A stretch of DNA of 48,894 nucleotides from Magnetococcales bacterium (GTDB lineage: Bacteria; Pseudomonadota; Magnetococcia; Magnetococcales; UBA8363), in NCBI GenBank assembly GCA_015228975.1, contig JADGCN010000014.1, positions 1-48,894 on the forward strand, written 5' to 3'. Numbering within the stretch: the first letter of the stretch is position 1; every line of letters starts with the position of its first letter. A program made the translations under genes and the position numbers. The notes under the pieces were generated by a model. That model was not told the origin of the DNA. It was given only the letters and a program-made list of their open reading frames with translations, and made no database searches. Of this stretch, positions 34,622-47,717 are shown one piece after another.

Positions 34622-36160
34622 CTATTGGACTGCCATGGCGTTGGAAAAATTGCCCACATGGGTCCGTACTCCAGGCAGGGGTTCGAGTTCAAAGCGTTCG
34701 GTGATCCATTTCAGGATGGATGTTGTGTCGTAGCGCGTGTGATCGACAAAACCTTTTTTGACCATGGGGCCGATGAATAACGTTGGAATACGCGATCCCG
34801 GTCCAAAATCGTCGCTCCATCCCGGTCCCGTGGGTGGTGGTACATGGTCCCAGAATCCACCGTTTTCGTCATAGGTGACGACAATGAGCATATGGGGCCA
34901 TTGCGGGCTGGCGCGCAGTTTGCGCAATATTTCGTCGATGTGGGTATCCCCTGACAACACATCGGCATACCCTGGGTGCTGATTGACATGACCGGCGGGT
35001 TTGTAAAAGCTGACCGGGGGTAACGTCCCCTGTTCGATATCCTGCCAGAACGCAGCGGCATCTTTCAGATGCTCTTCCCGTTCCCGGGTTCCGGGTGCGT
35101 AGCGTGCGAAATAATTGAACGGTTGGTGATGGGGCTGAAAATTGGCGGAACCGGGTTCCCGGTTGTAGATGACCCGGCGTTTGGTTTGCGGCTCCTGCAT
35201 GCCATCGCCCAACGCTTGCTGGTAGGCCCCGGCGTACCAGCTCCAGGCGACCCCTTTGGCCGACAGGGTATCCCCAATGGTTGCATGGGTCTGGGGTGGC
35301 AGGGGAACCTGAAAGCCTTTGCCCGTTCCCGATCCCCGGGGGTTGGCATGGGTGCGGGGGCCATCCGCGGCGGGGGGGATGCCGCTGGGTTGGTAGGGGG
35401 GTTGGGAGGTGTTGACGGACCATCCGTCCCGGGTCACCTGCATGAGCCCGTCATCTTCAACTTGCATCGCCCCCTGATTGGCGGAAGGGGAGTCCGGTTT
35501 TTTGACCAGGGAGCCGTGAATGTCCATACGGACGCTCATGGAAGCGGGGGCATTGGGGTGTTGCGGGGTACACGCGCAGATGAGCCAGAAATGGTTCAGA
35601 TAAGAACCGCCATAGGCGGCCATGAAAAATTGATCGGCCAACGTGTAGTCGCGTGCCCATTGCCACAATTTCAACGGGCTGCCATCGTAATAGCCCATGG
35701 TCCAGCCACCGACATTGGAAATCGCGGCAAAACGGTCATTCCTGCCGCCATTGATTTGCTCCCGGTTGTAAAAAAAACTGTGAATCGGATTGGGTCCGAG
35801 TTGGTCGAAGGGGCGATTCAAGGGGGGGGCATCGATGCGGAACGGGCCATTGGGAAGACGGGGAAAAGCGGGATCCGGTTTGCCCTGCTTATCAAAAATC
35901 AACAATTCCTTAAGGGGCGCGCCGTCATGGTCACGCTGGATTTTTTGTTCCCGGGTGGCATTGGCGATGCCATCGGCACCGGGAAACAATCCAAACAGGT
36001 GATCAAAGCTGCGATTCTCGGCGTAGATGATCACAATGTTGTTGACGGGGTGTTCGCCGGGCGCATACAACGCCGGCGGCGGTGCCACACACCCACCTGC
36101 AAGGGCTAAAATGCCCGGTACCACCACTGCCACATAACCCCGAAGACATAATTTTCGCAA
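34622..36160 (-). CDS. Phosphoesterase-family lipoprotein (phospholipase C/acid phosphatase type)
   Basis: A 512-residue PF04185-type phosphoesterase. The TTG at 36160 is favoured because GGAGGA lies 8 nt upstream and the resulting N-terminus is a lipoprotein signal ending LALAGGC (Cys about residue 24). Catalytic-region motifs are IIYAENRSFDHLFG (metal/nucleophile site), a T-H-A-N-P-R segment, HPGYADVLSGDTHI and VVTYDENGGFWDHV. Relatives are bacterial phospholipases C and AcpA-like acid phosphatases; which substrate is hydrolysed here is unknown. It lies 61 bp upstream of the permease fusion gene on the same strand and is divergent from the tolC-like gene. Confidence 0.9.
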   Translation of the reverse strand: MRKLCLRGYVAVVVPGILALAGGCVAPPPALYAPGEHPVNNIVIIYAENRSFDHLFGLFPGADGIANATREQKIQRDHDGAPLKELLIFDKQGKPDPAFPRLPNGPFRIDAPPLNRPFDQLGPNPIHSFFYNREQINGGRNDRFAAISNVGGWTMGYYDGSPLKLWQWARDYTLADQFFMAAYGGSYLNHFWLICACTPQHPNAPASMSVRMDIHGSLVKKPDSPSANQGAMQVEDDGLMQVTRDGWSVNTSQPPYQPSGIPPAADGPRTHANPRGSGTGKGFQVPLPPQTHATIGDTLSAKGVAWSWYAGAYQQALGDGMQEPQTKRRVIYNREPGSANFQPHHQPFNYFARYAPGTREREEHLKDAAAFWQDIEQGTLPPVSFYKPAGHVNQHPGYADVLSGDTHIDEILRKLRASPQWPHMLIVVTYDENGGFWDHVPPPTGPGWSDDFGPGSRIPTLFIGPMVKKGFVDHTRYDTTSILKWITERFELEPLPGVRTHVGNFSNAMAVQ

Positions 36161-36298
36161 AAAACATCCTCCATGTACTGTAAAATTTTCCGGTGATTAT
36201 TAAAGAAAGTACCGGTAGAATGCACACGGTACATGACCAGCGAATTGGCGCAATGGTAAAACATTCTCTGGTTTTTATCAACTGTGAGGGTCTTCAAG

Positions 36299-37639
36299 AT
36301 GTCCATCCTGTATCGACTTGTCCGAAATCTGGTTCCCGCCGCAGCCGCAGTGGCTTGCCTGAGTGGAATGCCCGGGTCCGCCCTTGCCGGGGATCTGTGG
36401 CAGACATATCAGGCGGCTTTGGATCACGATCCCGGGCTGAAAGCCGCCTTGCACCGGAAACAGGGGGCCATGGAGGCGTTGCCGCAAAGCACGGCGGCGT
36501 TGTACCCTTCCGCCTCGGTTACCACGCAACATGGCTTATACAAACAATCGACGTTGGACAAGGACAGCTATGATACCAGCGGTTTTTCCCTGTCGATCAT
36601 GGTCCCGCTGTTTCACCGGGATCGCCTGGTTGGCCTGGATATGGCCAAAACGGGGATGGACATGGCGGAACTCGGCTATCTCCTGGAGCAACAGCAACAG
36701 GTGCTGCGGGTCGCGGAAAAATATTTCAACGTCCTCTCCGCTGAAGAGAGCCTGAATGTCGCCTTGGCCGAGGAGACGGCCATGAAGCGCCAGTTAGACT
36801 TGGCCAAGGAAGGATTGTCCGCCGGCACCGCCATCATCACGGAAGTGCAAGAGGCCCAGTCGGGTGTCGATTTCGCCAAGGCCCAGGTGGTTGCTTCCCG
36901 CAATGCCGTTTTGCAGCGACAACGCGAATTGACGGAACTGACGGGCTTGCGGGATAAAGCTTTGCATCTGTTGCCGCTCAAACAGGACATTCCCCTCAAG
37001 GAACCGGATCCGGCGCTCCCTGATCGTTGGGTCGAGGATGGTTTGGAAAACAATGCCAATCTGAAAATCATGCGTGCCAAACAAATGCAGGCGACGCAGG
37101 GTGTGGAAAAGGCCCGTGCCGAGCATTTCCCGACCGTGGATGCGACAACGGGCTACAGTTATTCCGACAGCGGGGGTTCCAATTTTTGGACCGGGGGCGT
37201 ACCGACCTCCAAGACCAATTATGTCACGGTGCAGTTGAATGTTCCGTTGTATGCGGGTGGGGCGACCGTTTCCAAGGTGCGTCAGGCCGAGCAGGCTTTG
37301 CAGGAAGCGCAGTATGAACTGGAACGCAGTCGCCAGGAAGTCGAGACGGGCATTCGCAATGCCTATCTGGACGTACAAACCGCGATCGCCCAGGTGACCG
37401 CCTTCAAACAAGCCTTGACATCATCCTCCAGCGTGTTGCAAACCACCCGCGAAAGCCATGTCGCCGGTCTCAGGACCATGCTGGATGTCTTGAATGCGGA
37501 ACGTGACGTGTTCCGTGCCATGCGCAATCTGGCCGATTCCCGGTATCGCTATATTCTGGGTGCCTTGCGTCTCAAGTTCAATGCCGGCCAACTGGTCAGT
37601 CAGGACCTTTCCAACATTAACGAATGGCTCAAAAAATGA
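36299..37639 (+). CDS. TolC-family outer-membrane efflux protein
   Basis: From the ATG at 36299 (GAGGG 9 nt upstream) the product is 446 residues. A cleavable signal peptide ends near SALA. The repeated coiled-coil halves typical of TolC follow (DLWQTYQAALDHDPG; mid-protein repeat D-R-W-V-E-D-G-L-E-N-N-A-N-L; C-terminal LNAERDVFRAMRNLADSRYRYI). TolC trimers form the outer-membrane channel and periplasmic tunnel of tripartite pumps. Its stop overlaps the adaptor gene start (ATGA), so the three pump genes form one operon. Confidence 0.93.
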   Translation: MSILYRLVRNLVPAAAAVACLSGMPGSALAGDLWQTYQAALDHDPGLKAALHRKQGAMEALPQSTAALYPSASVTTQHGLYKQSTLDKDSYDTSGFSLSIMVPLFHRDRLVGLDMAKTGMDMAELGYLLEQQQQVLRVAEKYFNVLSAEESLNVALAEETAMKRQLDLAKEGLSAGTAIITEVQEAQSGVDFAKAQVVASRNAVLQRQRELTELTGLRDKALHLLPLKQDIPLKEPDPALPDRWVEDGLENNANLKIMRAKQMQATQGVEKARAEHFPTVDATTGYSYSDSGGSNFWTGGVPTSKTNYVTVQLNVPLYAGGATVSKVRQAEQALQEAQYELERSRQEVETGIRNAYLDVQTAIAQVTAFKQALTSSSSVLQTTRESHVAGLRTMLDVLNAERDVFRAMRNLADSRYRYILGALRLKFNAGQLVSQDLSNINEWLKK

Positions 37640-38769
37640 AAAACTTAATGCCAGTTTTTTCCCGACATGGTATCCGGCTTTTCGGTCATCGCCGTAGTGT
37701 ACTCGGTACCTTGTTGGTGTGTTTGCCGTTCTTGACATGTGTCGCACCGGATACGGCCCGGGGTCAGGCGGATAACAAACCCGGTGCCAGTGTCGTCGTC
37801 TCCCTGGAAAAGCAGACCCACGAGTTGCTGTTGGAGGGGACGGTGGAGGCGGTGAAACAGGCGACCATGTCGGCCCAGGTGTCGGGTCAGGTCGTCGAGT
37901 TGAACTTTGACGTCAACGACTATGTGACCAAGGGTCAGGTGTTGTTGCGCATCAAGGGGGAGCAACGGGAAGCGGGTGTGGCGTTGGCCAAGGCGGGAGT
38001 GGATGAGGCCAAGGCGGCCCTGGCCCAGGCCAGCAGCGAACATGCGCGTTTGAAACAATTGTTCGACAAGCAGATGGTGACCAGTGCCAAAATGGATGCC
38101 GCCGTGGCGGCGATGTCGGCGGCGCAAGCGCGCCTGAAGGCGGCGCAGGCCCAGGTTTCCGGGGCCAGCGAAACCGCCGGGGACAACGTGGTCAAAGCCC
38201 CCTACTCCGGTTATGTGTTGGAACGTTTCGTTCAGCTTGGCGAGACGGCAAACATTGGTCATCCCATTTTTTCCGGCATGTCCCTGGATGAACTGCGGGT
38301 CATGGTGACGTTGCCGCAATCCGCCGAGCCGGTCGTTCGCAAACATATGGAGGCCCGCGTTCTGCTGGCGGATGGCAGCAGCATTCCCGGGGCTGGCGTC
38401 ACCCTGTTCCCCTATGCGGACAAGGGTACGCACACGGTCGGTGCCCGTATCAAGTTACCCAACGAAACCAAGGGATTGTTCCCTGGAATGTTGGTCAAGG
38501 TGGCCTTCAAGCTGGGGGAACGGGAGCGATTGCTGATCCCGGCAACGGCGATGGTGCAACGCAGTGAGGTGACGGGCATTTATCTCATGGGTGCCCAGGG
38601 CCAGGTCTCTTTCCGGCGTGTTCTGGCCGGTCGCCAGGATGATAAGGGCAGAGTGGAAGTGTTGGCGGGGTTGGTTCCGGGTGAACGGATCGCCCTGGAC
38701 CCCGTAATGGCGGGATTGGCTTTCAAGGCCACTCCCCAAGCCGATGACAAGGAAAAAGGAACGCATTGA
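37636..38769 (+). CDS. RND efflux periplasmic adaptor subunit
   Basis: A membrane-fusion protein of 377 residues from the ATG at 37636. N-terminal signal/anchor (about 22-45), then split lipoyl domain (SAQVSGQVVELNFDVNDYV and VVKAPYSGYVLERFVQLGE), a helical hairpin rich in Ala (about 110-180), beta barrel and C-terminal membrane-proximal domain. It links the RND pump to TolC. It overlaps the genes on both sides (ATGA with tolC, TGATG with the pump). Confidence 0.93.
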   Translation: MKNLMPVFSRHGIRLFGHRRSVLGTLLVCLPFLTCVAPDTARGQADNKPGASVVVSLEKQTHELLLEGTVEAVKQATMSAQVSGQVVELNFDVNDYVTKGQVLLRIKGEQREAGVALAKAGVDEAKAALAQASSEHARLKQLFDKQMVTSAKMDAAVAAMSAAQARLKAAQAQVSGASETAGDNVVKAPYSGYVLERFVQLGETANIGHPIFSGMSLDELRVMVTLPQSAEPVVRKHMEARVLLADGSSIPGAGVTLFPYADKGTHTVGARIKLPNETKGLFPGMLVKVAFKLGERERLLIPATAMVQRSEVTGIYLMGAQGQVSFRRVLAGRQDDKGRVEVLAGLVPGERIALDPVMAGLAFKATPQADDKEKGTH

Positions 38770-41700
38770 TGGGCGGCGAGGAACTCTCTTTTTCTGGGCG
38801 CATTGCCGGCAAGTTTCAAAATTCGGCGATCACCCCCCTGCTGGGGCTGGTGGGTTTTTTATTGGGCCTCATGGCCGTGGCCATCACCCCGCAGGAGGAG
38901 GAGCCACAAATTTCGGTAACGTTTGCCAATGTGTTCATTCCCTACCCCGGGGCATCCGCCGCCGAAGTGGAAAAGGTGGTGGCGACGCCGGCGGAGCAGA
39001 TCTTGTCCGAAGTGGAGGGGGTCAAGCATGTCTACTCCATCTCCCGTCCGGGCATGGCCATTGTCACGGTGCAGTTCACCGTTGGCGAAAACCGCAACAG
39101 CGCAATCTTGCGACTCTATAACGCCGTTTTTTCCAACGAAGATTTTTTGCCGCGTAATCTGGGCGTGGGCCGGCCTTTGGTCAAGCCCAAAGGGATCGAT
39201 GACGTGCCCATCGTCACGTTCACCCTGTGGAGTGATGATCCGAATTGGGGATCCTACGAACTCGCCCATGTGGCGCATGCCCTGGAGGCGGAATTGAAAC
39301 GCGTTCCCGATACCCGGGATATCTATACCATCGGGGCGCCGGATCGCGTTGTCCATGTGGTTTTGGATCCCCTCAAGCTGTCGGGTTACCAACTGACCCT
39401 GGAGGACATCAGCCAATCCCTGGGGGCGTTCAACGCCGTTGGTCACGTGGGTGCCATGGTGTCCGACAATCGCCATGTCTTGGTGCAATCGGGGGAATTC
39501 CTGCAAACGGCGGAAGAGGTGGCCAGTCTGGTGGTGGCGATGCGTAACGGTGCGCCGGTCTACTTGCAGGACGTGGCCCGGGTGACGTTGGAGCCTGATC
39601 AACCCCTCTCTTATGTATGGTTCGGTACCGGTCCCAGTGCCCATATCGAGGGGGATGCCCCGGTGCGGGACACCCCGGCGGTGACCCTGGCGGTTGCCAA
39701 GAAACCGGGGGCCAATGCCTCCTCCATCGCCAAAAATGTCATTGACCGGATGCAACAATTAAAAGGTTACATCATTCCCGACAACGTGCATTACAAGATC
39801 ACCCGCGACTATGGCGCCACGGCGGCGGCCAAGGCGCAAAAATTGATCGGCAAGCTGGCATTTGCCACGTTCTTCGTCGTGTTGCTGGTGCTTTTGACCA
39901 TGGGATGGCGCGAGGCGGCCATCGTCGGCACCGCGGTCATTTTAACCCTGGCCCTGACCTTGTTCGCCAACTGGGCCTGGGGGTTTACGCTGAATCGTGT
40001 CTCGTTGTTCGCCCTGATTTTTTCCATCGGCATTTTGGTCGACGACGCCATTGTCGTCGTGGAAAACATCCATCGTCACATGCATGGTGGCAGCAAACCG
40101 TTGTTGGAAATCATCCCCCAGGCGGTACATGAAATTGGCGGACCCACCATTCTGGCGACCTTTACCGTCATTTCCGCCCTGTTACCCATGACGTTCGTCA
40201 CCGGCCTCATGGGGCCCTACATGAGTCCCATTCCCATCAATGCCAGCATTGGCATGGTGATTTCGTTGTGTGTCGCTTTTGTGATCACCCCCTGGCTGGC
40301 CTACAAAGGGTTGAATCGTCGCTATTCGAAAAGTTTGGAACACAGGGGGCACCATGCCGCGAATCATGCCAGCGGTGGCGAGGAGGTTTCCCCGGGGATG
40401 CTGCGTTTCTTCACCGCCGTCTATCGCCCCTTTCTGACCAGCCGGTTGGCCATTTTGAATCGCTTGTTGCTGGGTGTCGCCATTTTTGTCTTGATTGGCC
40501 TCTCTTTGATGCTGGTTACCCAAGAAAAAGTGGTGCTGAAAATGCTCCCGTTTGACAACAAGTCAGAATTTCAGATTGTCGTGGACATGCCGCAGCAGGC
40601 CTCTTTGCAGGAGACCAGCCGCGTCATGACCGCCTTGACCGACTATTTGGCCAAGATGCCGGAGGTGACCAACTACCAAGCCTATGCGGGTATTTCCGGT
40701 CCCACGGGATTCAATGGTCTGGTGCGGCAATACTATTTGCGCAAGGGCAATTATGTAGGGGACATTCAGGTCAATATTGTGGACAAGCATCATCGCAATC
40801 GCAAAAGCCACGAGATCGCCCGGTCGATTCGCAAACCTTTGCAAGATATCGCCGCCCCCATGGGTGCCAATGTCAAAATCGTCGAAGTCCCCCCGGGTCC
40901 CCCGGTTCAGTCCCCCCTGGTCGTGGAGGTTTATGGCCCGGAATTGTCGGGGCAACACCACTTGGCCCGACAGATTGAAACCGTTTTTAAACAAACACCG
41001 GATATTGTCGATATCGACACCAGTGTCGAGCATGACACCGAGCGGCTCATAGTTCAAGTGGATCGCCAACGGGCAGCCCTGCTGGGTGTCAGTCAGGCTT
41101 CCGTCAACCAGATACTGGCCACGGCCCTTGGTGGCAACGATCTCTCCTTCGTCCATACGGAAACCTCCAAGTATGCCACTCCGATACGCGCCGAGTTGGG
41201 TTCTGCCGACAAGGGTGATCTGGCGACGATACTGAACATGAAAGTGCGCAATACCAGCGGTGGACTGATTCCCTTGTCCGATTTCGTCACGGTTAAAAAA
41301 GCGGGTATTGATCACGCCATCTACCACAAGGATATGGCGCGAGTGGTTTATGTCACGGGTGACATGGCGGGCGATCTCGACAGCCCGCTGTACGGCATGG
41401 GTGCCATTTACGGCAAATTAGAGGCGCTGAAGTCCGTCAGTGGGCAACCGCTGACGCAATACTTGATCAATCAGCCGGCGGTCCCGTTCGACTACAGCGT
41501 CAAATGGGATGGCGAATGGCAGATCACGTATGAAACCTTCCGTGACATGGGCATAGCCTACAGCGTTGGATTGTTGATGATCTATCTGTTGGTTGTGGCG
41601 CAATTCCGTTCCTATCTGGTACCGTTGGTCATCATGGCCCCGATTCCCCTGACCGTGATCGGGGTCATGCCGGGACATGCCCTCCTGGGTGCCCAGTTCA

Positions 41701-42035
41701 CGGCGACATCAATGATTGGCATGATTGCCCTGGCGGGAATCATCGTGCGTAATTCCATATTATTGGTGGATTTCGTCAATGAGACCGTGGCCAGCGGCAA
41801 TTCCCTGGATAAAGCGGTCATCTTATCGGGTGCCATTCGCGCCAAACCCATCATTCTCACCGGTCTGGCCGCCATGTTGGGTGCCTTTTTCATCCTTGAT
41901 GATCCCATTTTCAGCGGTCTGGCCATCGTTCTGATCTTCGGTATTTTCATCTCAACCGTGCTGACCTTGTGGATCATTCCCATCCTGTATTTCAGCATGA
42001 TGCATGGGCAAATTGGCAAACAGGGTGCCGCGTAA
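38769..42035 (+). CDS. RND-family efflux pump permease
   Basis: An inner-membrane RND pump of 1088 residues with 12 predicted helices and two large periplasmic loops. The proton-relay segment FSIGILVDDAIVVVENI with the Asp pair is present near residue 420, as are the N-terminal region and the AGIIVRNSILLVDF repeat near residue 990. It resembles the hydrophobe/general efflux type rather than a metal pump, but the substrate cannot be determined. The ATG at 38769 overlaps the adaptor stop. Two methionine-rich membrane-protein genes follow directly. Confidence 0.94.
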   Translation: MGGEELSFSGRIAGKFQNSAITPLLGLVGFLLGLMAVAITPQEEEPQISVTFANVFIPYPGASAAEVEKVVATPAEQILSEVEGVKHVYSISRPGMAIVTVQFTVGENRNSAILRLYNAVFSNEDFLPRNLGVGRPLVKPKGIDDVPIVTFTLWSDDPNWGSYELAHVAHALEAELKRVPDTRDIYTIGAPDRVVHVVLDPLKLSGYQLTLEDISQSLGAFNAVGHVGAMVSDNRHVLVQSGEFLQTAEEVASLVVAMRNGAPVYLQDVARVTLEPDQPLSYVWFGTGPSAHIEGDAPVRDTPAVTLAVAKKPGANASSIAKNVIDRMQQLKGYIIPDNVHYKITRDYGATAAAKAQKLIGKLAFATFFVVLLVLLTMGWREAAIVGTAVILTLALTLFANWAWGFTLNRVSLFALIFSIGILVDDAIVVVENIHRHMHGGSKPLLEIIPQAVHEIGGPTILATFTVISALLPMTFVTGLMGPYMSPIPINASIGMVISLCVAFVITPWLAYKGLNRRYSKSLEHRGHHAANHASGGEEVSPGMLRFFTAVYRPFLTSRLAILNRLLLGVAIFVLIGLSLMLVTQEKVVLKMLPFDNKSEFQIVVDMPQQASLQETSRVMTALTDYLAKMPEVTNYQAYAGISGPTGFNGLVRQYYLRKGNYVGDIQVNIVDKHHRNRKSHEIARSIRKPLQDIAAPMGANVKIVEVPPGPPVQSPLVVEVYGPELSGQHHLARQIETVFKQTPDIVDIDTSVEHDTERLIVQVDRQRAALLGVSQASVNQILATALGGNDLSFVHTETSKYATPIRAELGSADKGDLATILNMKVRNTSGGLIPLSDFVTVKKAGIDHAIYHKDMARVVYVTGDMAGDLDSPLYGMGAIYGKLEALKSVSGQPLTQYLINQPAVPFDYSVKWDGEWQITYETFRDMGIAYSVGLLMIYLLVVAQFRSYLVPLVIMAPIPLTVIGVMPGHALLGAQFTATSMIGMIALAGIIVRNSILLVDFVNETVASGNSLDKAVILSGAIRAKPIILTGLAAMLGAFFILDDPIFSGLAIVLIFGIFISTVLTLWIIPILYFSMMHGQIGKQGAA

Positions 42036-42040
42036 CGATC

Positions 42041-42595
42041 ATGACGACTGAAAATAAAAACAATTCTGACCTGCTCAAGCAGGCCATGGCGGATTTCAAA
42101 GAGGCGGTGCGACTGCGCAATATCCTGCATATCCGTGTCGCCTCCCGGGTGACCACCTTGCTGCGCGCCGGGATGGTCAGCCTGGCGGTGGTGGCGGTGG
42201 TGTTCCTGTTCCTGCTTTGGACGGTCAGTTCCAAACTCGATATCATGATCAACGTCATGGAGGTCATGAATCACAGATTCACGAACATGGCCAAGGATAT
42301 GTCTGTCATGCGAGAGGTGATCGCCAGCATGGACCAGAACATGGCCAGCATGCCAGTAATTGTCGAGGAGGTCGGTTCCATGCAAAAAACGGTGGCTGCC
42401 ATGAACCCGGATATTCAAAAAATCGCCAAACAGATGCATTTGATTGAAATAAATATGGGCGGCATCACCCAGGCGGTCGGGCATATGACGCAAACCTTTT
42501 CGGCCATGGACTTCAATGTCCAGGAAATCGACAAGGGCGTCCACCGCACGGCACGGCCTATGAAAATGTTCAACAAATTCTCTCCATTACCTTGA
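42041..42595 (+). CDS. Methionine-rich single-pass membrane protein, first paralog
   Basis: A 184-residue protein starting 5 bp after the pump stop (ATG at 42041). A hydrophilic helical N-terminus (1-40), one transmembrane helix (about 43-62; SLAVVAVVFLFLLW) and a long helical domain follow. In that domain Met recurs every 3-11 residues, including NMASMPVIVEE and SMQKTVAAM. It ends in RTARPMKMF near the C-terminus. I recognise no family. The next gene is a clear paralog. Its position in the pump operon suggests an accessory or envelope-anchored coiled-coil role; Met richness could mean metal (copper or silver) contact or simply coiled-coil packing. Confidence 0.8.
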   Translation: MTTENKNNSDLLKQAMADFKEAVRLRNILHIRVASRVTTLLRAGMVSLAVVAVVFLFLLWTVSSKLDIMINVMEVMNHRFTNMAKDMSVMREVIASMDQNMASMPVIVEEVGSMQKTVAAMNPDIQKIAKQMHLIEINMGGITQAVGHMTQTFSAMDFNVQEIDKGVHRTARPMKMFNKFSPLP

Positions 42596-42609
42596 TACGG
42601 GGGCCATAC

Positions 42610-43176
42610 ATGGCAAACGAGCACGAAATGGATGATGCGATTGGTATCATCAGCGAAACGTTTGGCACTTTCCGGGCGGAAATGGAGCAGGTCAACAGGG
42701 TTGCCTCCAAAATTGCCAAAAAGACACAATGGTTCATCCGCATTACCATGGGCATCATTGCCGTGGCTTTCGCCTACGTTTTCTTCCAGGTGACCCAGGT
42801 GACGACCAACATGGTCGATATGATCGGCAGCATGGATACCATGTTGAACCGGTTTGGCGGCATGTCCGAGGATATGGGCCATTTGACCGCGGCTGTCCAA
42901 TCCATGGGGGATAACATTCAGGGCATGCCCGTTATTGCCCAGGACATGCAGCGTATGAACCAGGACGTGGCCGGGATGCAGAACTCTGTCAGCGCCATGT
43001 TGGCCGATGTGACCAGCATGGATAAAAATGTCGATACCATTCGACTGAGCACCTACCAGATGGCGGATCGGTTTGTCAGCGTGAATGGTGCGGTTTCTCA
43101 CATGAATTACAATGTTTGGCAGATGTCTCGCCCGACGAATATGTTTGGACCCATGAACTGGTTGTCGCCTCCATAA
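42610..43176 (+). CDS. Methionine-rich single-pass membrane protein, second paralog
   Basis: A 188-residue protein from the ATG at 42610 with GGGGG upstream. It has the same plan as its neighbour: helical N-terminus, transmembrane helix (about 45-63; ITMGIIAVAFAYVFF), then a Met-patterned helical region. IQGMPVIAQDMQRMNQDVAGM (split: IQGMPVIAQDM, QRMNQDVAGM) aligns with the neighbour's MPVI segment, and the C-terminus has SRPTNMFGPMNW aligning with RPMKMF. Tandem duplication is the obvious origin. Function unknown. Confidence 0.8.
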   Translation: MANEHEMDDAIGIISETFGTFRAEMEQVNRVASKIAKKTQWFIRITMGIIAVAFAYVFFQVTQVTTNMVDMIGSMDTMLNRFGGMSEDMGHLTAAVQSMGDNIQGMPVIAQDMQRMNQDVAGMQNSVSAMLADVTSMDKNVDTIRLSTYQMADRFVSVNGAVSHMNYNVWQMSRPTNMFGPMNWLSPP

Positions 43177-43236
43177 GGATGGAATGTGACTGTTTCGGGG
43201 GATCCGATCCGCATGTCAATAAGGATAATGTCTTCA

Positions 43237-44034
43237 ATGAGAGAACGATGGGAGCGATGGTCGGTACTGTTGGCGTTGCTGTTGGGGGTGGCGGTACTCT
43301 TGCCGACCTCGGGGGCGGCCCAGGATGCCGAACAGTCGCCAACCTTTAAAAACAGCCTCGGCATGGTCTTCAACCTGATTCAGCCGGGAAAGTTTTTGAT
43401 GGGAAGTCCGGGCAGCGACAAGAATAGATACCGGGATGAAATCCAGCATCCCGTGGTCATCTCCAAGCCGTTTTACATGCAGACAACGGAGGTGACGCAA
43501 GGTCAGTGGCAAGCGATTATGGGGGATAATCCGGCGTATTTCATGCGTTGTGGCGATGATTGTCCCATCGAGGAGATTTCCTGGGAAGATATTCAAATCT
43601 TTCTCGAAAAATTAAATGCCAAAGGTGAGGGGACGTATCGATTGCCCACCGAGGCGGAATGGGAATATGCCGCACGAGGTGGGGCGATAACGCTGTATTC
43701 GTTTGGTGATGATGTGACAGAGGTTGCCAACTATTCGTGGCATGGCAAAAATTCGGGTAGCAAAACGCACCCGGTTGCCAAACTGGCACCCAATCGCTGG
43801 GGGTTGTACGATATGGAGGGCAACGTCTATGAATGGGTTGCCGATTGGTATGGTCCCTACCCAACTACAGAAGTGACCGATCCCAAAGGACCATCATCGG
43901 GCACTTACCGCGTGGCCCGGGGGGGCGGTTGGCATAGCAGCCCAGGGCGTGTCCGTCCGGCGGTGCGCAACATCTACGGACCCACGTTTCGTTACTATCG
44001 CCTGGGCTTTCGCCTGGTCAAGACCATCTCCTGA
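43237..44034 (+). CDS. Secreted FGE-fold (SUMF1-like) protein
   Basis: A 265-residue protein from the ATG at 43237, which gives a textbook signal peptide (MRERWERW then a Leu/Val-rich core, cleavage near GAAQ) and has AAGGA 11 nt upstream; a GTG at 43186 would extend it by 17. The body is an FGE-sulfatase-type fold: NSLGMVFNLIQPGKFLMGS, TTEVTQGQW, YRLPTEAEWEYAARGG, GLYDMEGNVYEWVADW, ARGGGWHSS, LGFRLV. The two Cys that generate formylglycine are missing, so it is probably not a sulfatase activator. Related in fold to the lipoprotein at 23757 but without MORN repeats. It may end the pump operon transcript. Confidence 0.88.
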   Translation: MRERWERWSVLLALLLGVAVLLPTSGAAQDAEQSPTFKNSLGMVFNLIQPGKFLMGSPGSDKNRYRDEIQHPVVISKPFYMQTTEVTQGQWQAIMGDNPAYFMRCGDDCPIEEISWEDIQIFLEKLNAKGEGTYRLPTEAEWEYAARGGAITLYSFGDDVTEVANYSWHGKNSGSKTHPVAKLAPNRWGLYDMEGNVYEWVADWYGPYPTTEVTDPKGPSSGTYRVARGGGWHSSPGRVRPAVRNIYGPTFRYYRLGFRLVKTIS

Positions 44035-44143
44035 ATGGGCAACCGCGCAACCCTGGTGGGTGGTCCCAGCGTATGACGCCTGCTTGAAAACTGTATCGTG
44101 ATATCGTGGCAATGGACGTGAGAACGCAGCGGTGGTTGCCCCT

Positions 44144-45562
44144 TCACCCCATGTCATCGTGCCATGGCTGCGGGAGAGGCTGCCAATGACCCGGGGAAGA
44201 ATCCAGGTGGGGTGGCATCCGCTCCTGCTCACACAAAGAGGCTAACGTCTCCCCCTGACGGATTATTTCGTGCCGTCCCCGGGCATTCACCAATATGATC
44301 GGCGGTCGCAACTCAATGAATTGCAACCATTGGGTGTTGTTGTAGGCACCCACGGGAGAAAAAACCAGGCGGTCCCCCACCGCAAGGGGCGGCAGGGTGA
44401 CCATTTGGCGCATGTAATCGATATTCATGCACAATGGCCCGAAGATTGCCGTCTCTTCAGGCACCCCATCTTTGGGCTGCACCAACTGAACTGGATGGTG
44501 ATACCATAAAGCCGTCAATAATAGATTGATCCCGGCGTCCAGAATAATGCCGCGTCGGCCATCAACCAGACGTTTGGTACCCACTACGGTGGCAGCCAAC
44601 GATTGGGCATCGTCAACAACAGCCCGTCCGCTTTCAAAGATGAGGAGTGGCAACGGCCCGGACCGGTTGGACAATCCCTTTTTCAAAGCCATGCCGATAC
44701 GTTTTGTATACTCTTCCAATTCGGGAACTGCCTGTTCCGGGGGGATTGGTGTCCCTTGCAGGGCGTTGTGCGAGGGAAAACCACCACCGATATCCAAATA
44801 GGCGATACGGGTTCCACTATCCCGTTCCACCTCGTGGAGGAACTCGGTCATGAGACGTACCTGTTCTCCATAAGCCGTGGGATCCAGAATGAAGGTGCCA
44901 ATGTGGCTATGCAATCCGTTCAGGGTCAGGTGCGGGGAAAGGCGGATGCGGGTCGCGGCCTCAATGGCTTGGCCATTCTCCAGATTGAAACCAAAACGGC
45001 TCCAAGGTTCGGTAATTCCCGTATTAAAATTTAAACGCAAGGCAACGGAAACGACTCGGCCCTGCTCCCTGGCCACGCTTTCCATGAGATCCAATTCATC
45101 CAGATGATCCAGATGCACATGGGCCCCTTCGGAAACAGCGCGTTCCAGAATCGCACGCGGTTTGTAGGGACCGTTGAAGAGGATCCGGTTGCCGGGTACA
45201 CCCAGCAGGCGCGCCTTTTCATACTCCGACTTGGAGACGACTTCGGCCCAGGAGCCTTCCTGATGCAGAATACGGCAAATGGCCGCGGTGATATTGGTTT
45301 TATAGGACCAACCATGCACAACGGTGGGATAATGATTTGTAAAAGATTGGATCATGCCTCGAACGTTGTCACGCAATCGTTTTTCCGAAGTGATGAACAA
45401 AGGGGAACCATAGCTGTTCATCAAATCATCGATGGCGACACCGTCAATTTCGGAACAGATGCCTTGGTTGCGCCGATAACCGAAGGTGTTGATCGCCCCC
45501 TTGCTGAGGGGTTGAATCCAGGGTGGATCCCAGGCGCGTAACGTAGAAGATGGTTTATTCAT
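44144..45562 (-). CDS. Type III PLP-dependent decarboxylase (LysA/ODC fold)
   Basis: A 472-residue alanine-racemase-fold decarboxylase. The PLP lysine is in SYKTN (about residue 88); HSHIG, DIGGGFPSH (phosphate-binding Gly loop), FESGRAVV and the active-site GPLCMNIDYM (Cys and Asp from the partner subunit) are present. The CMNID sequence differs from LysA (CES) and ODC (CDG), so the substrate is probably neither diaminopimelate nor ornithine. An N-terminal extension of about 35 residues is not typical of LysA. It lies 15 bp after the ATP-grasp gene. The pairing resembles BtrK with BtrJ, which act on a carrier-bound amino acid, but this is inference. Confidence 0.88.
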   Translation of the reverse strand: MNKPSSTLRAWDPPWIQPLSKGAINTFGYRRNQGICSEIDGVAIDDLMNSYGSPLFITSEKRLRDNVRGMIQSFTNHYPTVVHGWSYKTNITAAICRILHQEGSWAEVVSKSEYEKARLLGVPGNRILFNGPYKPRAILERAVSEGAHVHLDHLDELDLMESVAREQGRVVSVALRLNFNTGITEPWSRFGFNLENGQAIEAATRIRLSPHLTLNGLHSHIGTFILDPTAYGEQVRLMTEFLHEVERDSGTRIAYLDIGGGFPSHNALQGTPIPPEQAVPELEEYTKRIGMALKKGLSNRSGPLPLLIFESGRAVVDDAQSLAATVVGTKRLVDGRRGIILDAGINLLLTALWYHHPVQLVQPKDGVPEETAIFGPLCMNIDYMRQMVTLPPLAVGDRLVFSPVGAYNNTQWLQFIELRPPIILVNARGRHEIIRQGETLASLCEQERMPPHLDSSPGHWQPLPQPWHDDMG

Positions 45563-45577
45563 GAACAGCGGCTTTCA

Positions 45578-46666
45578 TCATGCAGGCGGCGAGGCGTGGT
45601 TGCCGGTTGTGGCCATGGCGGCCCAGCGTTCAAAATCGACAGCGAGATCCCGGGCATGGCGGATGAACAACGTCCCGGTTTTTGCGGCGGGAAGGGCGGG
45701 GCATTGTTCTCGCGCCAACAGATGCATCAGCAGCGCTGGCAGGTTTCGTCCCACGGCGTGACTCATGTAGATCCAGGAGGGGAAGCGCGGATTGAGTTCC
45801 ACCAGATACAGTTTGCCATCCTCGCCGCGCAGGGCTTCCACCTCCAGAGGGCCACGCCAGGATAAATGACGGGTCAAAGTTTCCGCCATTTCCAACAGTT
45901 CCTGATCGGCGATGGTGATCCCCGACCATGCCTTCCCTTGGTCGGTCGTGCCGCGTTTGCGCATCATCACGGCCCCCAACAAAGTGCTTTCCCCATCGCA
46001 CACCGCGGTCAGATTGACTTCGTGACCCGGAATGAAACGTTGCACCAGGATGGGATACCCCCATTGCTGGGCAATCCGCCAGCAAGCGGTTTTGGCTTCG
46101 TTGGCGTTGCGAACCACGTGGGCACCATAGACGCGCCCTTTGATGACCAACGGGTAGGACCACCCCATTTGGTGACAGGTGTCAAAGAAACCCATGTCGT
46201 TGACGATGCGGGTGGCCGGGGTTGCCACACCCGTCGCCGCACCCAAGGCGGGAAGGTTTTCTTTGCTCCGTGTTGTCAGTGTTTTCCGATCCGGCAACAA
46301 GGAGGCAATGCCCAGCTCCGCCAATGCGGGTTGCAACCGCTGAAGATTGTCAAGCTCCGCATCCAGGCAGGGGACGATGGCGTCCACCGTCACTTTGCTT
46401 TTGATTTCATGCAGCCGTTCCAGCAACGCTGCCTCACCCAGGGAGGGATATGGGAGGAGGTAGGCTTCATCGCAAGCATGATCGTCATAAAGTCCGGCAT
46501 CCAGGGCATCATAACTCAGGGCGATCAAGCGACCGCGAAACTCCGGGTGTTGCCGCAGGCACCGTGCTACCGCCAATCCCGGGGCCGGGTTGTCGGCACG
46601 CGCCCCCATTCCGGTAATGGCGATGGTCCAGGTACGCCAATTGTTCGACCGCTGCTCTGATGTCAT
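45578..46666 (-). CDS. ATP-grasp carboxylate-amine ligase
   Basis: A 362-residue ATP-grasp enzyme. An N-terminal Rossmann-like pre-grasp domain (about 1-110, ITGMGARADNPAPGL) is followed by the ATP-grasp fold: Lys in LVIKGRVYGAHVV, the VQRFIPGHEVN segment that binds adenine and Mg, and E-A-L...VELNPRFPS supplying the metal-binding Glu/Asn. Such enzymes activate a carboxylate as acyl phosphate and join it to an amine or thiol. The start overlaps the PqqD-like gene stop (ATGA) and the decarboxylase follows, so the three are co-translated. The substrate is not readable. Confidence 0.88.
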   Translation of the reverse strand: MTSEQRSNNWRTWTIAITGMGARADNPAPGLAVARCLRQHPEFRGRLIALSYDALDAGLYDDHACDEAYLLPYPSLGEAALLERLHEIKSKVTVDAIVPCLDAELDNLQRLQPALAELGIASLLPDRKTLTTRSKENLPALGAATGVATPATRIVNDMGFFDTCHQMGWSYPLVIKGRVYGAHVVRNANEAKTACWRIAQQWGYPILVQRFIPGHEVNLTAVCDGESTLLGAVMMRKRGTTDQGKAWSGITIADQELLEMAETLTRHLSWRGPLEVEALRGEDGKLYLVELNPRFPSWIYMSHAVGRNLPALLMHLLAREQCPALPAAKTGTLFIRHARDLAVDFERWAAMATTGNHASPPA

Positions 46667-46938
46667 GGGATGCTTTGGGCCAGTTGCTGGGAAAACCCCG
46701 CAACCGCTGCCGTGGCACTCTCCAGGGTTACGGCGTAGATCTCCGTCAATCTGTGTGCCACTTCCTCCGTCGATACCCCGCTTTGCAACAATTCCAAAAT
46801 CGTCAAACCCGTGGTGTTGACGGTAAAACTGAGACCGCTCACCGGATCGAAGACCAAACCGGTGCGACTGACCGCAAGGTGTTCCAATCGTCCCGGGTCC
46901 AAGGACTTCCGGGATGGTGACAGACCCGAGTCGGCCAT
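46663..46938 (-). CDS. PqqD-family peptide-binding (RRE-like) protein
   Basis: A 91-residue protein matching the PqqD fold: a beta hairpin (H-L-A-V-S-R-T-G-L-V-F-D-P), then L-S-F-T-V-N-T-T-G-L-T-I-L-E-L-L and a helix S-T-E-E-V-A-H-R-L. PqqD-like domains are RiPP recognition elements that hold leader peptides for modifying enzymes. GGAGGT lies 3 nt upstream of the ATG at 46938. The stop overlaps the ATP-grasp gene. No radical-SAM enzyme or HprK-type kinase is adjacent, so this is not a standard PQQ or HprK-related system. Confidence 0.8.
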   Translation of the reverse strand: MADSGLSPSRKSLDPGRLEHLAVSRTGLVFDPVSGLSFTVNTTGLTILELLQSGVSTEEVAHRLTEIYAVTLESATAAVAGFSQQLAQSIP

Positions 46939-46968
46939 GTTACCTCCAACACAAGGATGACGAACGGG

Positions 46969-47002
46969 AAAAAAACGAGGTCAGGCACAGGCGAATGCCT
47001 GT
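46969..47002 (-). terminator. Possible attenuator between the peptide gene and pqqD
   Basis: On the minus strand a hairpin ACAGGC/GCCTGT with a 4-nt loop (47002-46987) is followed after 11 nt by a run of seven T (46975-46969). A second small GGCAG/CTGCC stem lies just upstream. The U-run is too far from the stem for a textbook terminator, so partial termination is the most that can be claimed. It would let the peptide be made in excess over the enzymes. Confidence 0.35.
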
Positions 47003-47111
47003 TTTCCGGCAGGCTGCCGACAACACGGTGCCAGGTCAGGGTGGCCTGGAATGGGGACGTTACAGAACCAAAAACCTGGCATTATCCCCATGGTACCCTA
47101 TTCCGCGATGA

Positions 47112-47396
47112 TTACATCTTACCCCCGGAATCGCCTCCGGAAGTGCCACCATCGGTGCCACCGGCCTCGGCAACAACCTGCCAGCTCGCAGCCCGGGCAG
47201 CGGTCGGTTCCAGATAGCCGGCCAGGGCCAAACTGGCATCGAGTCGAACTTGTGCCGGAGGGGTGGACAACGTTTCCCCGGCGCAGATCCTGCCAACCAT
47301 GGCATTGTTGGTACAGATGGTCGCTGCGGAGCTTTCGGAAACCGGACCCGCAACGAGAAGGGGGGAAACAACTGCCGCAAAGAGTGTTGAGTTCAC
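47112..47396 (-). CDS. Small peptide with hydrophobic leader and Gly-rich tail; candidate precursor
   Basis: A 94-residue product from the GTG at 47396, chosen because AGGAG lies 7 nt upstream; in a longer frame (ATG 47432) the same bases would be a rare AGG-AGA Arg pair. Residues 1-25 are hydrophobic (LFAAVVSPLLVAGP) and end SESSAA, like a signal peptide or leader. Two Cys follow (TICTNNAMVGRICAG), then LDASLALAGYLEP and a tail GGTDGGTSGGDSGGKM. I recognise no family. It precedes pqqD by 173 bp on the same strand. If the ATG at 47432 is used, a basic n-region (RDRRAK) makes a good Sec signal peptide. It could be a modified secreted peptide or an unrelated small exported protein. Confidence 0.6.
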   Translation of the reverse strand: MNSTLFAAVVSPLLVAGPVSESSAATICTNNAMVGRICAGETLSTPPAQVRLDASLALAGYLEPTAARAASWQVVAEAGGTDGGTSGGDSGGKM

Positions 47397-47717
47397 TTTC
47401 GCTCTCCTGTCACGCCAAATTTGATACACCATCACATGCTTCAGAAAAACCGCGAAGTTGCCCGCCCGAATACCACGGACAACGCATCGGTACAGGCTGC
47501 CTTTCCACGCGTCGAAAGTCAAGAACGAATTCCACGTATTAACCTCGATGAATGACATCCCATGGAATACAATGGCTCAATGTGGTATTTTTCATTCTCC
47601 TATGATAACAATATCTACCAATGTCCAAACGGTGAAAGGCCGTTTGCCGCCGCGCACCCTCGCAAAGGTTTCGTGAACAAGCTCTAACCTTTTAAGTCGT
47701 GAAATCAAGCCATTCTC
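47397..47717. other. Divergent intergenic region between peptide gene and helicase gene
   Basis: About 320 bp between two divergent genes, so promoters for both should lie here. On the minus strand TTGACT (47522-47517) resembles a -35, but no -10 is found at 16-18 bp. Open frames in it have no recognisable content. AT content rises near 47570-47640. I see no repeat or RNA element. Confidence 0.4.

Follow-up and report, generated by a model that had tools for sequence, protein, structure and literature searches.

A cassette of PqqD, ATP-grasp and decarboxylase genes

What is made by a PqqD-family protein, an ATP-grasp ligase and an amino-acid decarboxylase encoded side by side? The question is raised by a locus on a contig of a Magnetococcales bacterium (GCA_015228975.1, JADGCN010000014.1), of which the whole stretch analysed, 48,894 nucleotides, is here denoted the window; the genome is 3.75 Mb in size and 75.9% complete. 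The original prediction placed four genes on the minus strand, and open reading frames (ORFs) were found at all four places and on that strand: a small peptide ORF of 94 amino acids (47112-47396), a PqqD-family protein of 91 amino acids (46663-46938), an ATP-grasp ligase of 362 amino acids (45578-46666) and a pyridoxal 5'-phosphate (PLP) decarboxylase of type III, that is, of the LysA or alanine-racemase fold, with 472 amino acids (44144-45562). As predicted, the stop of the PqqD gene and the start of the ligase gene share 4 nucleotides (ATGA) and 15 nucleotides separate the ligase from the decarboxylase; 173 nucleotides lie between the peptide ORF and the PqqD gene. Pfam backed the three enzyme and domain identities that had been proposed, with PF05402 for the PqqD protein (34.0 bits, cut-off 23.4), PF15632 (43.8 bits) and PF02655 (30.5 bits) for the ligase, and PF02784 (106.3 bits) and PF00278 (49 bits) for the decarboxylase.

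The answer that we favour, with a probability of roughly 0.45, is that the last three genes would form a biosynthetic cassette in which ligation is followed by decarboxylation, and that the amine-ended product would serve an envelope module encoded nearby in most carriers. In the first reaction, the ATP-grasp enzyme would use ATP to activate a carboxylate and join it to an amino acid at the side chain of the latter. In the second, the LysA-fold decarboxylase would take the alpha-carboxyl off the amino acid in this conjugate, so that an amide bearing a free primary amine remains. The PqqD-like protein probably serves for docking, as a subunit that presents a substrate or tethers the ligase. Candidate acceptors are a wall polymer, a small acid and, for the lineage of the window, the peptide. 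The analysis establishes gene content, conservation, co-occurrence and the assignments of families and motifs; the order of the reactions, the acceptor, the part played by PqqD, the location of the proteins and the fate of the product are inferred from these.

We searched 398 genomes of the phylum, themselves a sample, with an alignment of the ligase (E-value up to 1e-30, a threshold that distant relatives may escape) and detected the family in 36 genomes, at 37 places. Thirty-six loci were examined, the truncated one of G191 being set aside (G and L numbers denote genomes and loci). The decarboxylase lies downstream of the ligase in all 36, some of them cut by contig ends, and the PqqD gene lies upstream of it in 35; in the remaining locus 92 nucleotides lead to the contig end. 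The gene ends of the three often overlap. PqqD, ATP-grasp and decarboxylase are a conserved unit; its carriers are 15 of the 48 genomes from the window's order, 20 of 78 from that of G005, and G001, a member of another family. The order of G005 appears to be Zetaproteobacteria, an assignment drawn partly from neighbouring genes. No description of the cassette or of the envelope module was found in the literature covered, which took in few subscription papers and preprints.

Residues K176, E277, E290 and N292 of the ligase are invariant in 10 aligned homologues. Its best matches in Pfam and NCBIfam, compared with no dedicated tree, are PRK12767-like and ATPgrasp_Ter proteins, and no graspetide model is among them. 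The ligase is distant from the PRK12767 carbamoyl-phosphate-synthase-like proteins (87 bits against PRK12767.1-4, below the cut-off of 390). An AlphaFold model of the ligase, built from 4 sequences, was unusable (mean predicted local distance difference test score, pLDDT, 31.8).

PqqD domains bind leader peptides. The protein of the window has this type of domain (PqqD, or recognition element, RRE, of ribosomally synthesized and post-translationally modified peptides, RiPPs), with PF05402 above its cut-off; against TIGR04353, the PqqD model of the HPr-rel-A system, it scores 28.1 bits, below the cut-off of 35. Of the 35 PqqD ORFs, 18 are longer than 240 amino acids, and in 16 of the 18 there is an RH[FM] motif like that of TetR regulators. 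At L051 (6974-7789), the one such ORF tested with Pfam, the PqqD domain is C-terminal to a TetR N-terminal domain, directly before the ligase gene.

The decarboxylase favours ligation as the first step

The decarboxylase contains the PLP lysine motif WSYKTN and the catalytic-cysteine motif GPLCMNID, both present in 31/31 family members aligned. Its best NCBIfam model is FslC (NF041039; 221.6 bits, below the cut-off of 500), followed by lysA (TIGR01048; 203.4 bits, below the cut-off of 297.9). The best match in the PDB is the N-citrylornithine decarboxylase 7kh2 (E 1.3e-57), and the BtrK structures 7ru7 and 2j66 match at E 2-3e-18. In a tree of 56 alanine-racemase-fold decarboxylases, the 31 family members form one clade (100/100), outside which fall nine LysA, seven SpeA, five ornithine decarboxylase (ODC) and three exosortase-type enzymes and one other. 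The tree keeps 31 of the 36 loci; the rows left out were five copies of members present, and members outside 440-490 amino acids or with masked letters. Its labels LysA, ODC, SpeA and exosortase-type were set by motif or length, the motif being therefore not independent of the label.

The decarboxylase shares its fold, PLP lysine and catalytic cysteine with LysA, but a role as the LysA of lysine synthesis was rejected: the family is a separate clade, the score is below the lysA cut-off, and the genome has its own LysA elsewhere (L139, 522.3 bits), the one of the nine LysA rows that NCBIfam confirms. Where LysA rows read C-E-S/T-G-D, by definition of their label, the window's family reads C-M-N-I-D. 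A tight grouping with diaminopimelate decarboxylases (DAPDCs), which had been set as a test of the original prediction, was not seen. No carboxynorspermidine decarboxylase model is among the NCBIfam matches of the enzyme at E up to 1, and the tree holds no such enzyme. SpeA arginine decarboxylase was rejected likewise, being a separate clade with the genome's own copy on contig 223.

PMC7857480 describes that in FigC the aspartate beside the catalytic cysteine, which contacts the side-chain amine of the substrate, is replaced by Met355. The motif of FigC is GPSCMQHD, and the methionine after the catalytic cysteine is thus common to FigC and to the window's family (31/31). A methionine in place of the amine-contacting acidic residue is expected if the side-chain amine is acylated, which favours ligation before decarboxylation. 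The claim of the original prediction that an amino acid is ligated and then decarboxylated, leaving an amine, is therefore still the best reading of the pair, as judged from homology, from a pair that is constant in 36/36 loci and from the methionine after the cysteine.

The closeness to FigC also raises the possibility of a small diffusible metabolite such as a metallophore. In the FigA/FigC (FslA/FslC) route to rhizoferrin (PMC7857480), a ligase joins an acid and an amino acid, and the alpha-carboxyl is afterwards taken off by a PLP decarboxylase of the alanine-racemase fold; the paper puts FigC in one group with SbnH and AcsE, and holds enzymes of clade 2, with the exception of DAPDC and D-ornithine decarboxylase (D-ODC), to be likelier to make specialised metabolites, for example siderophores. 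By analogy, the ligase would couple a diamino acid with citrate or some other acid, the decarboxylase would produce a diamine amide, and the barrel and the membrane fusion protein described below would mediate export or uptake. FigC being the closest characterised decarboxylase fits this proposal, as does the patchy, accessory distribution of the cassette. However, the ligase FigA is a non-ribosomal-peptide-synthetase-independent siderophore (NIS) synthetase, whereas that of the window is an ATP-grasp, and 221.6 of the 500 bits needed is far below the FslC cut-off. There is neither a NIS synthetase nor a TonB receptor among the recurrent module genes, the set in which they were looked for, and the proposal leaves PqqD and the M23 domain unexplained. 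We know of no PqqD or urea-transporter/M23 protein in the FigA/FigC route. We consider a diffusible metabolite rather unlikely; were the product a small molecule, it would represent a metallophore-like route without NIS synthetase.

A second precedent is butirosin, in whose synthesis BtrJ is the ATP-grasp ligase. If the cassette worked in the same way, its ligase would load an amino acid on a carrier protein and the decarboxylase would act on the bound form. BtrK is homologous to the decarboxylase of the window (the 7ru7 and 2j66 matches above), and both systems pair an ATP-grasp ligase with a LysA-fold decarboxylase, the amino acid being tethered in butirosin synthesis (for BtrK, PMC7857480) and presumably here. 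However, no carrier protein was seen among the recurrent module genes or the small ORF families of 35 loci, in which no carrier model was run, and BtrK scores far below FigC, the decarboxylase being closer to FigC and to several DAPDCs than to BtrK. We regard this route as highly improbable.

In most carriers the cassette lies beside a probable envelope module

A fusion of a urea transporter and an M23 peptidase (UT-M23) is encoded in the fetched locus in 31 of the 36 cases, and genes for a TPR protein and a putative outer-membrane barrel occur in 24/36 loci each. The five loci without the fusion are the window, L070 and L040, which bear the small peptide gene, and L046 and L021, whose contigs end 300 and 1142 nucleotides past the ligase. 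The two domains of the fusion are PF03253 and PF01551, the latter below cut-off in L005 and above it in L106. An alignment of 8 fusions shows H354, D363, H437, H470 and H472 unchanged throughout; histidine and aspartate residues of this kind are the metal and catalytic ones in M23 peptidases. Pfam gave no match for the barrel gene, whose product is predicted from sequence to be a barrel; the TPR protein has a signal-like N-terminus.

Across the 398 genomes, the fusion is found in 36, the ligase in 36 and both in 32 (Fisher p 2e-38, a value that takes no account of kinship). Genomes with the fusion were counted by hand, including partial fusions at contig ends and leaving out matches to one half only. 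The four genomes with the ligase only are the three peptide bearers and G197, where the contig ends; the four with the fusion only are G169 and G172, in which it lies at a contig end, and G045 and G073, which encode a different enzyme pair (see below). Matches that span the two halves of the fusion, or are truncated at a contig end, are confined to G001, the window's order and the family of G005, all further matches being to one half only. In other families, six urea-transporter or M23 matches (L108-L113) were accompanied by none of the other module genes, as searched with phmmer. The fusion has no match in any of the three peptide-bearing genomes (the window's, G061 and G125; 75.9, 97 and 78% complete).

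In most carriers, the module would thus comprise a barrel, a TPR protein and a fusion of two domains, one resembling a urea channel of the inner membrane and the other an M23 peptidase. Since the cassette lies beside it in most genomes, the product with its amine is most likely active in the cell envelope or passes across it. In the subclade of the window the module was not found, and a small secreted-looking protein rich in cysteine and glycine is encoded upstream instead. PqqD, best known from peptide modification, would then be linked both to a chemistry of amide formation plus decarboxylation and to a conserved set of envelope genes.

One choice of acceptor within this explanation is peptidoglycan or another wall polymer: a diamine would be placed on wall precursors, and the M23 protein and the barrel would organise the wall and the outer membrane. 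The M23 domain with conserved histidine and aspartate residues and the barrel occur at the same loci, and cadaverine or putrescine is covalently bound in the wall of Selenomonas and Veillonella. However, the acceptor lacks direct evidence and the lineage of the window is without the module, and we hold amine-tailing of the wall to be quite unlikely. Were the acceptor an envelope polymer, bacteria would have a new way of adding amines to the cell wall or to material that they export.

A second, very distant enzyme pair accompanies the module in two genomes

In G045 and G073 (L106 and L107), both of the window's order, the fusion, TPR and barrel genes are found with a PRK06524-like ATP-grasp ligase (500 amino acids), an OKR_DC_1 decarboxylase of fold I (915 amino acids in L106) and a C45/AAT-like hydrolase, and no PqqD gene was found in these two loci. 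The PRK06524-like ligase and that of the window score 15-16 bits only, being very distant ATP-grasps, and the decarboxylases differ in fold. The PRK06524-like ligase and the OKR decarboxylase are also present in 8 other of the 398 genomes (L127-L134), all eight with C45/AAT-like and carbon-nitrogen hydrolases, and phmmer gave no PqqD match in these four-gene clusters. Like the cassette of the window, the four-gene cluster combines an ATP-grasp ligase with an amino-acid decarboxylase, and its ligase, decarboxylase and AAT-like genes adjoin the UT-M23 module in two genomes; it differs in ligase subfamily, in decarboxylase fold and in having no PqqD match.

Because two separately evolved pairs lie beside one envelope module, a ligase plus an amino-acid decarboxylase looks like the chemistry that the module requires. 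Among the indirect arguments for the chemistry, the presence of two such pairs at one module is the strongest, drawn as it is from two close genomes, and the replacement of one pair by the other predicts a common product. PMC7857480 notes that some organisms use putrescine directly, whereas others ligate ornithine first and decarboxylate it later; the two pair types could, by analogy, mirror this contrast. A wider proposal is that Magnetococcales and apparent Zetaproteobacteria have an undescribed envelope system in which the UT-M23 fusion, barrel and TPR protein are fed by interchangeable ligase/decarboxylase pairs making amine-ended amides, with two separately evolved pairs serving one module and PqqD working outside RiPP synthesis. 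We regard this proposal as doubtful.

Several observations weigh against a cassette that supplies an amine-ended product to the envelope. Support for the chemistry, that is, reaction, substrate and product, comes from homology, and the likely substrate was derived from a single motif together with NCBIfam scores, each of them below its curated cut-off. FigC, BtrK and MccE are outside the tree, so that the kinship with FigC rests on scores. The distribution is patchy within both orders (15/48 and 20/78 genomes). The alternative pair stands beside the module in two close genomes only, with ligases 96% identical. The barrel and TPR queries had no match in L043-L046 (G085, G002, G069), and FecR and SLAM-like proteins replace the barrel and TPR proteins in L043, L044 and L046. 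Finally, it is not obvious how one simple pathway would involve both a urea-type channel and an M23 domain.

The small peptide gene is restricted to one lineage

The peptide ORF has no match in Pfam or NCBIfam, and, read by eye, it has the hydrophobic N-terminus and Gly-rich tail noted in the original prediction, together with two cysteines. It is very likely a real gene, because G125 (L040), which belongs to another family of the order, has a homologue (45% identity, E 1.5e-12) that is upstream of PqqD and shares its strand. The L040 peptide, of 134 amino acids, has AGGAGG before its GTG; an in-frame TAG two codons upstream fixes this GTG as the start, which supports the GTG at 47396 as the start in the window. 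Searching the 48 genomes of the window's order revealed the peptide in G000 (the window's genome), in G061, which belongs to the same genus, and in G125, three genomes in two families; further weak matches were one in G149 (two stops, E 0.001) and a second one in G125. The peptide is thus lineage-restricted.

At the level of loci, the co-occurrence of peptide, PqqD, ATP-grasp and decarboxylase is seen in the window, L070 (G061) and L040 (G125), in each with the peptide upstream of PqqD, and fails in the other 33 of 36. A scan for small ORFs of 25-130 amino acids found no family recurring in more than 3 of 35 loci; the scan left out L070, ORFs longer than 130 amino acids (hence the 134-amino-acid peptide of L040) and those overlapping module genes. 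Most of the small-ORF clusters shown look like other reading frames of adjacent genes, or like their antisense strands. As a general statement, the ribosomal-peptide acceptor of the original prediction is not supported, as peptide-free homologous sets, the observation it had itself named as contrary, make up 33/36 loci. A general RiPP class was rejected on the same counts, no precursor being conserved across the family.

The decarboxylases of the window, L070 and L040 group together in the 56-row tree (100/98) and are nested inside those of fusion-bearing relatives, for which reason the arrangement with the peptide looks like a derived one. Since the peptide lies upstream of PqqD in just these three loci, all without a fusion match, it remains a candidate partner in the small subclade of the window. 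There, PqqD would bind the Gly-tailed peptide, to which the ligase would attach an amino acid for the decarboxylase to turn into an amine. Such a RiPP-like role is consistent with the homologous peptides of the three genomes, with the single clade of their decarboxylases and with leader binding by PqqD domains. Against it are the 33 loci and the small-ORF scan, an N-terminus that reads more like a weak signal peptide, and a stem at 47001-46982, between the peptide and PqqD genes, that may be a terminator and so separate their transcripts (the scan gave 8 such sites, compared with 4.3, sd 2.0, in shuffled sequences). The locus resembles RiPP clusters with PqqD/RRE in that a PqqD-family gene adjoins a possible modifying enzyme, but the family has no conserved precursor and no RiPP-type modifying enzyme was seen among the genes examined. 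We consider the RiPP-like role unlikely.

The DNA around the peptide (47084-47542) is 98.5% identical to that of G061 (L003, 122-580), including one fully identical window of 200 nucleotides. Elsewhere, 35583-46949 averages 95.0% identity to G061, 46380-46779 is 90.5% identical, and adjacent genes differ by 5-10%. This difference in identity may reflect a recent exchange of the cassette, or an unusual constraint.

Other genes at the loci

FecR-domain proteins are encoded in L043, L044, L046, L106 and L107, each beside a SLAM-like TPR/barrel protein; those of at least L043 and L044 have long Gly-rich tails, and L106 also encodes a CHASE2 histidine kinase. The Gly-rich FecR proteins were rejected as a general substrate, as they are found in these five loci only. 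Close to the module in L043, L044 and L045, a second urea-transporter/TPR protein adjoins an amidotransferase of the asparagine-synthase type (by Pfam in L043, as homologues in the others). Upstream of the module in L051 (3785-5125), a protein with one CxxCH motif has a barrel-like sequence, which we presume to resemble a cytochrome-porin of iron oxidation. The zetaproteobacterial stalk cluster sfz was rejected as a counterpart, since a search for words in PMC8250860 gave no PqqD, urea, M23 or ATP-grasp.

The original prediction had also stated that radical-SAM, cyclodehydratase, lanthionine and HprK-type genes are absent. This holds for the 10 ORFs flanking the cassette, which had no match to these Pfam families; the kinase was not sought genome-wide. 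Convergent with the decarboxylase, on the plus strand of the window (43228-44031), lies a gene for a formylglycine-generating-enzyme-like protein, and by reading a similar ORF is present at L003 (3497-4318).

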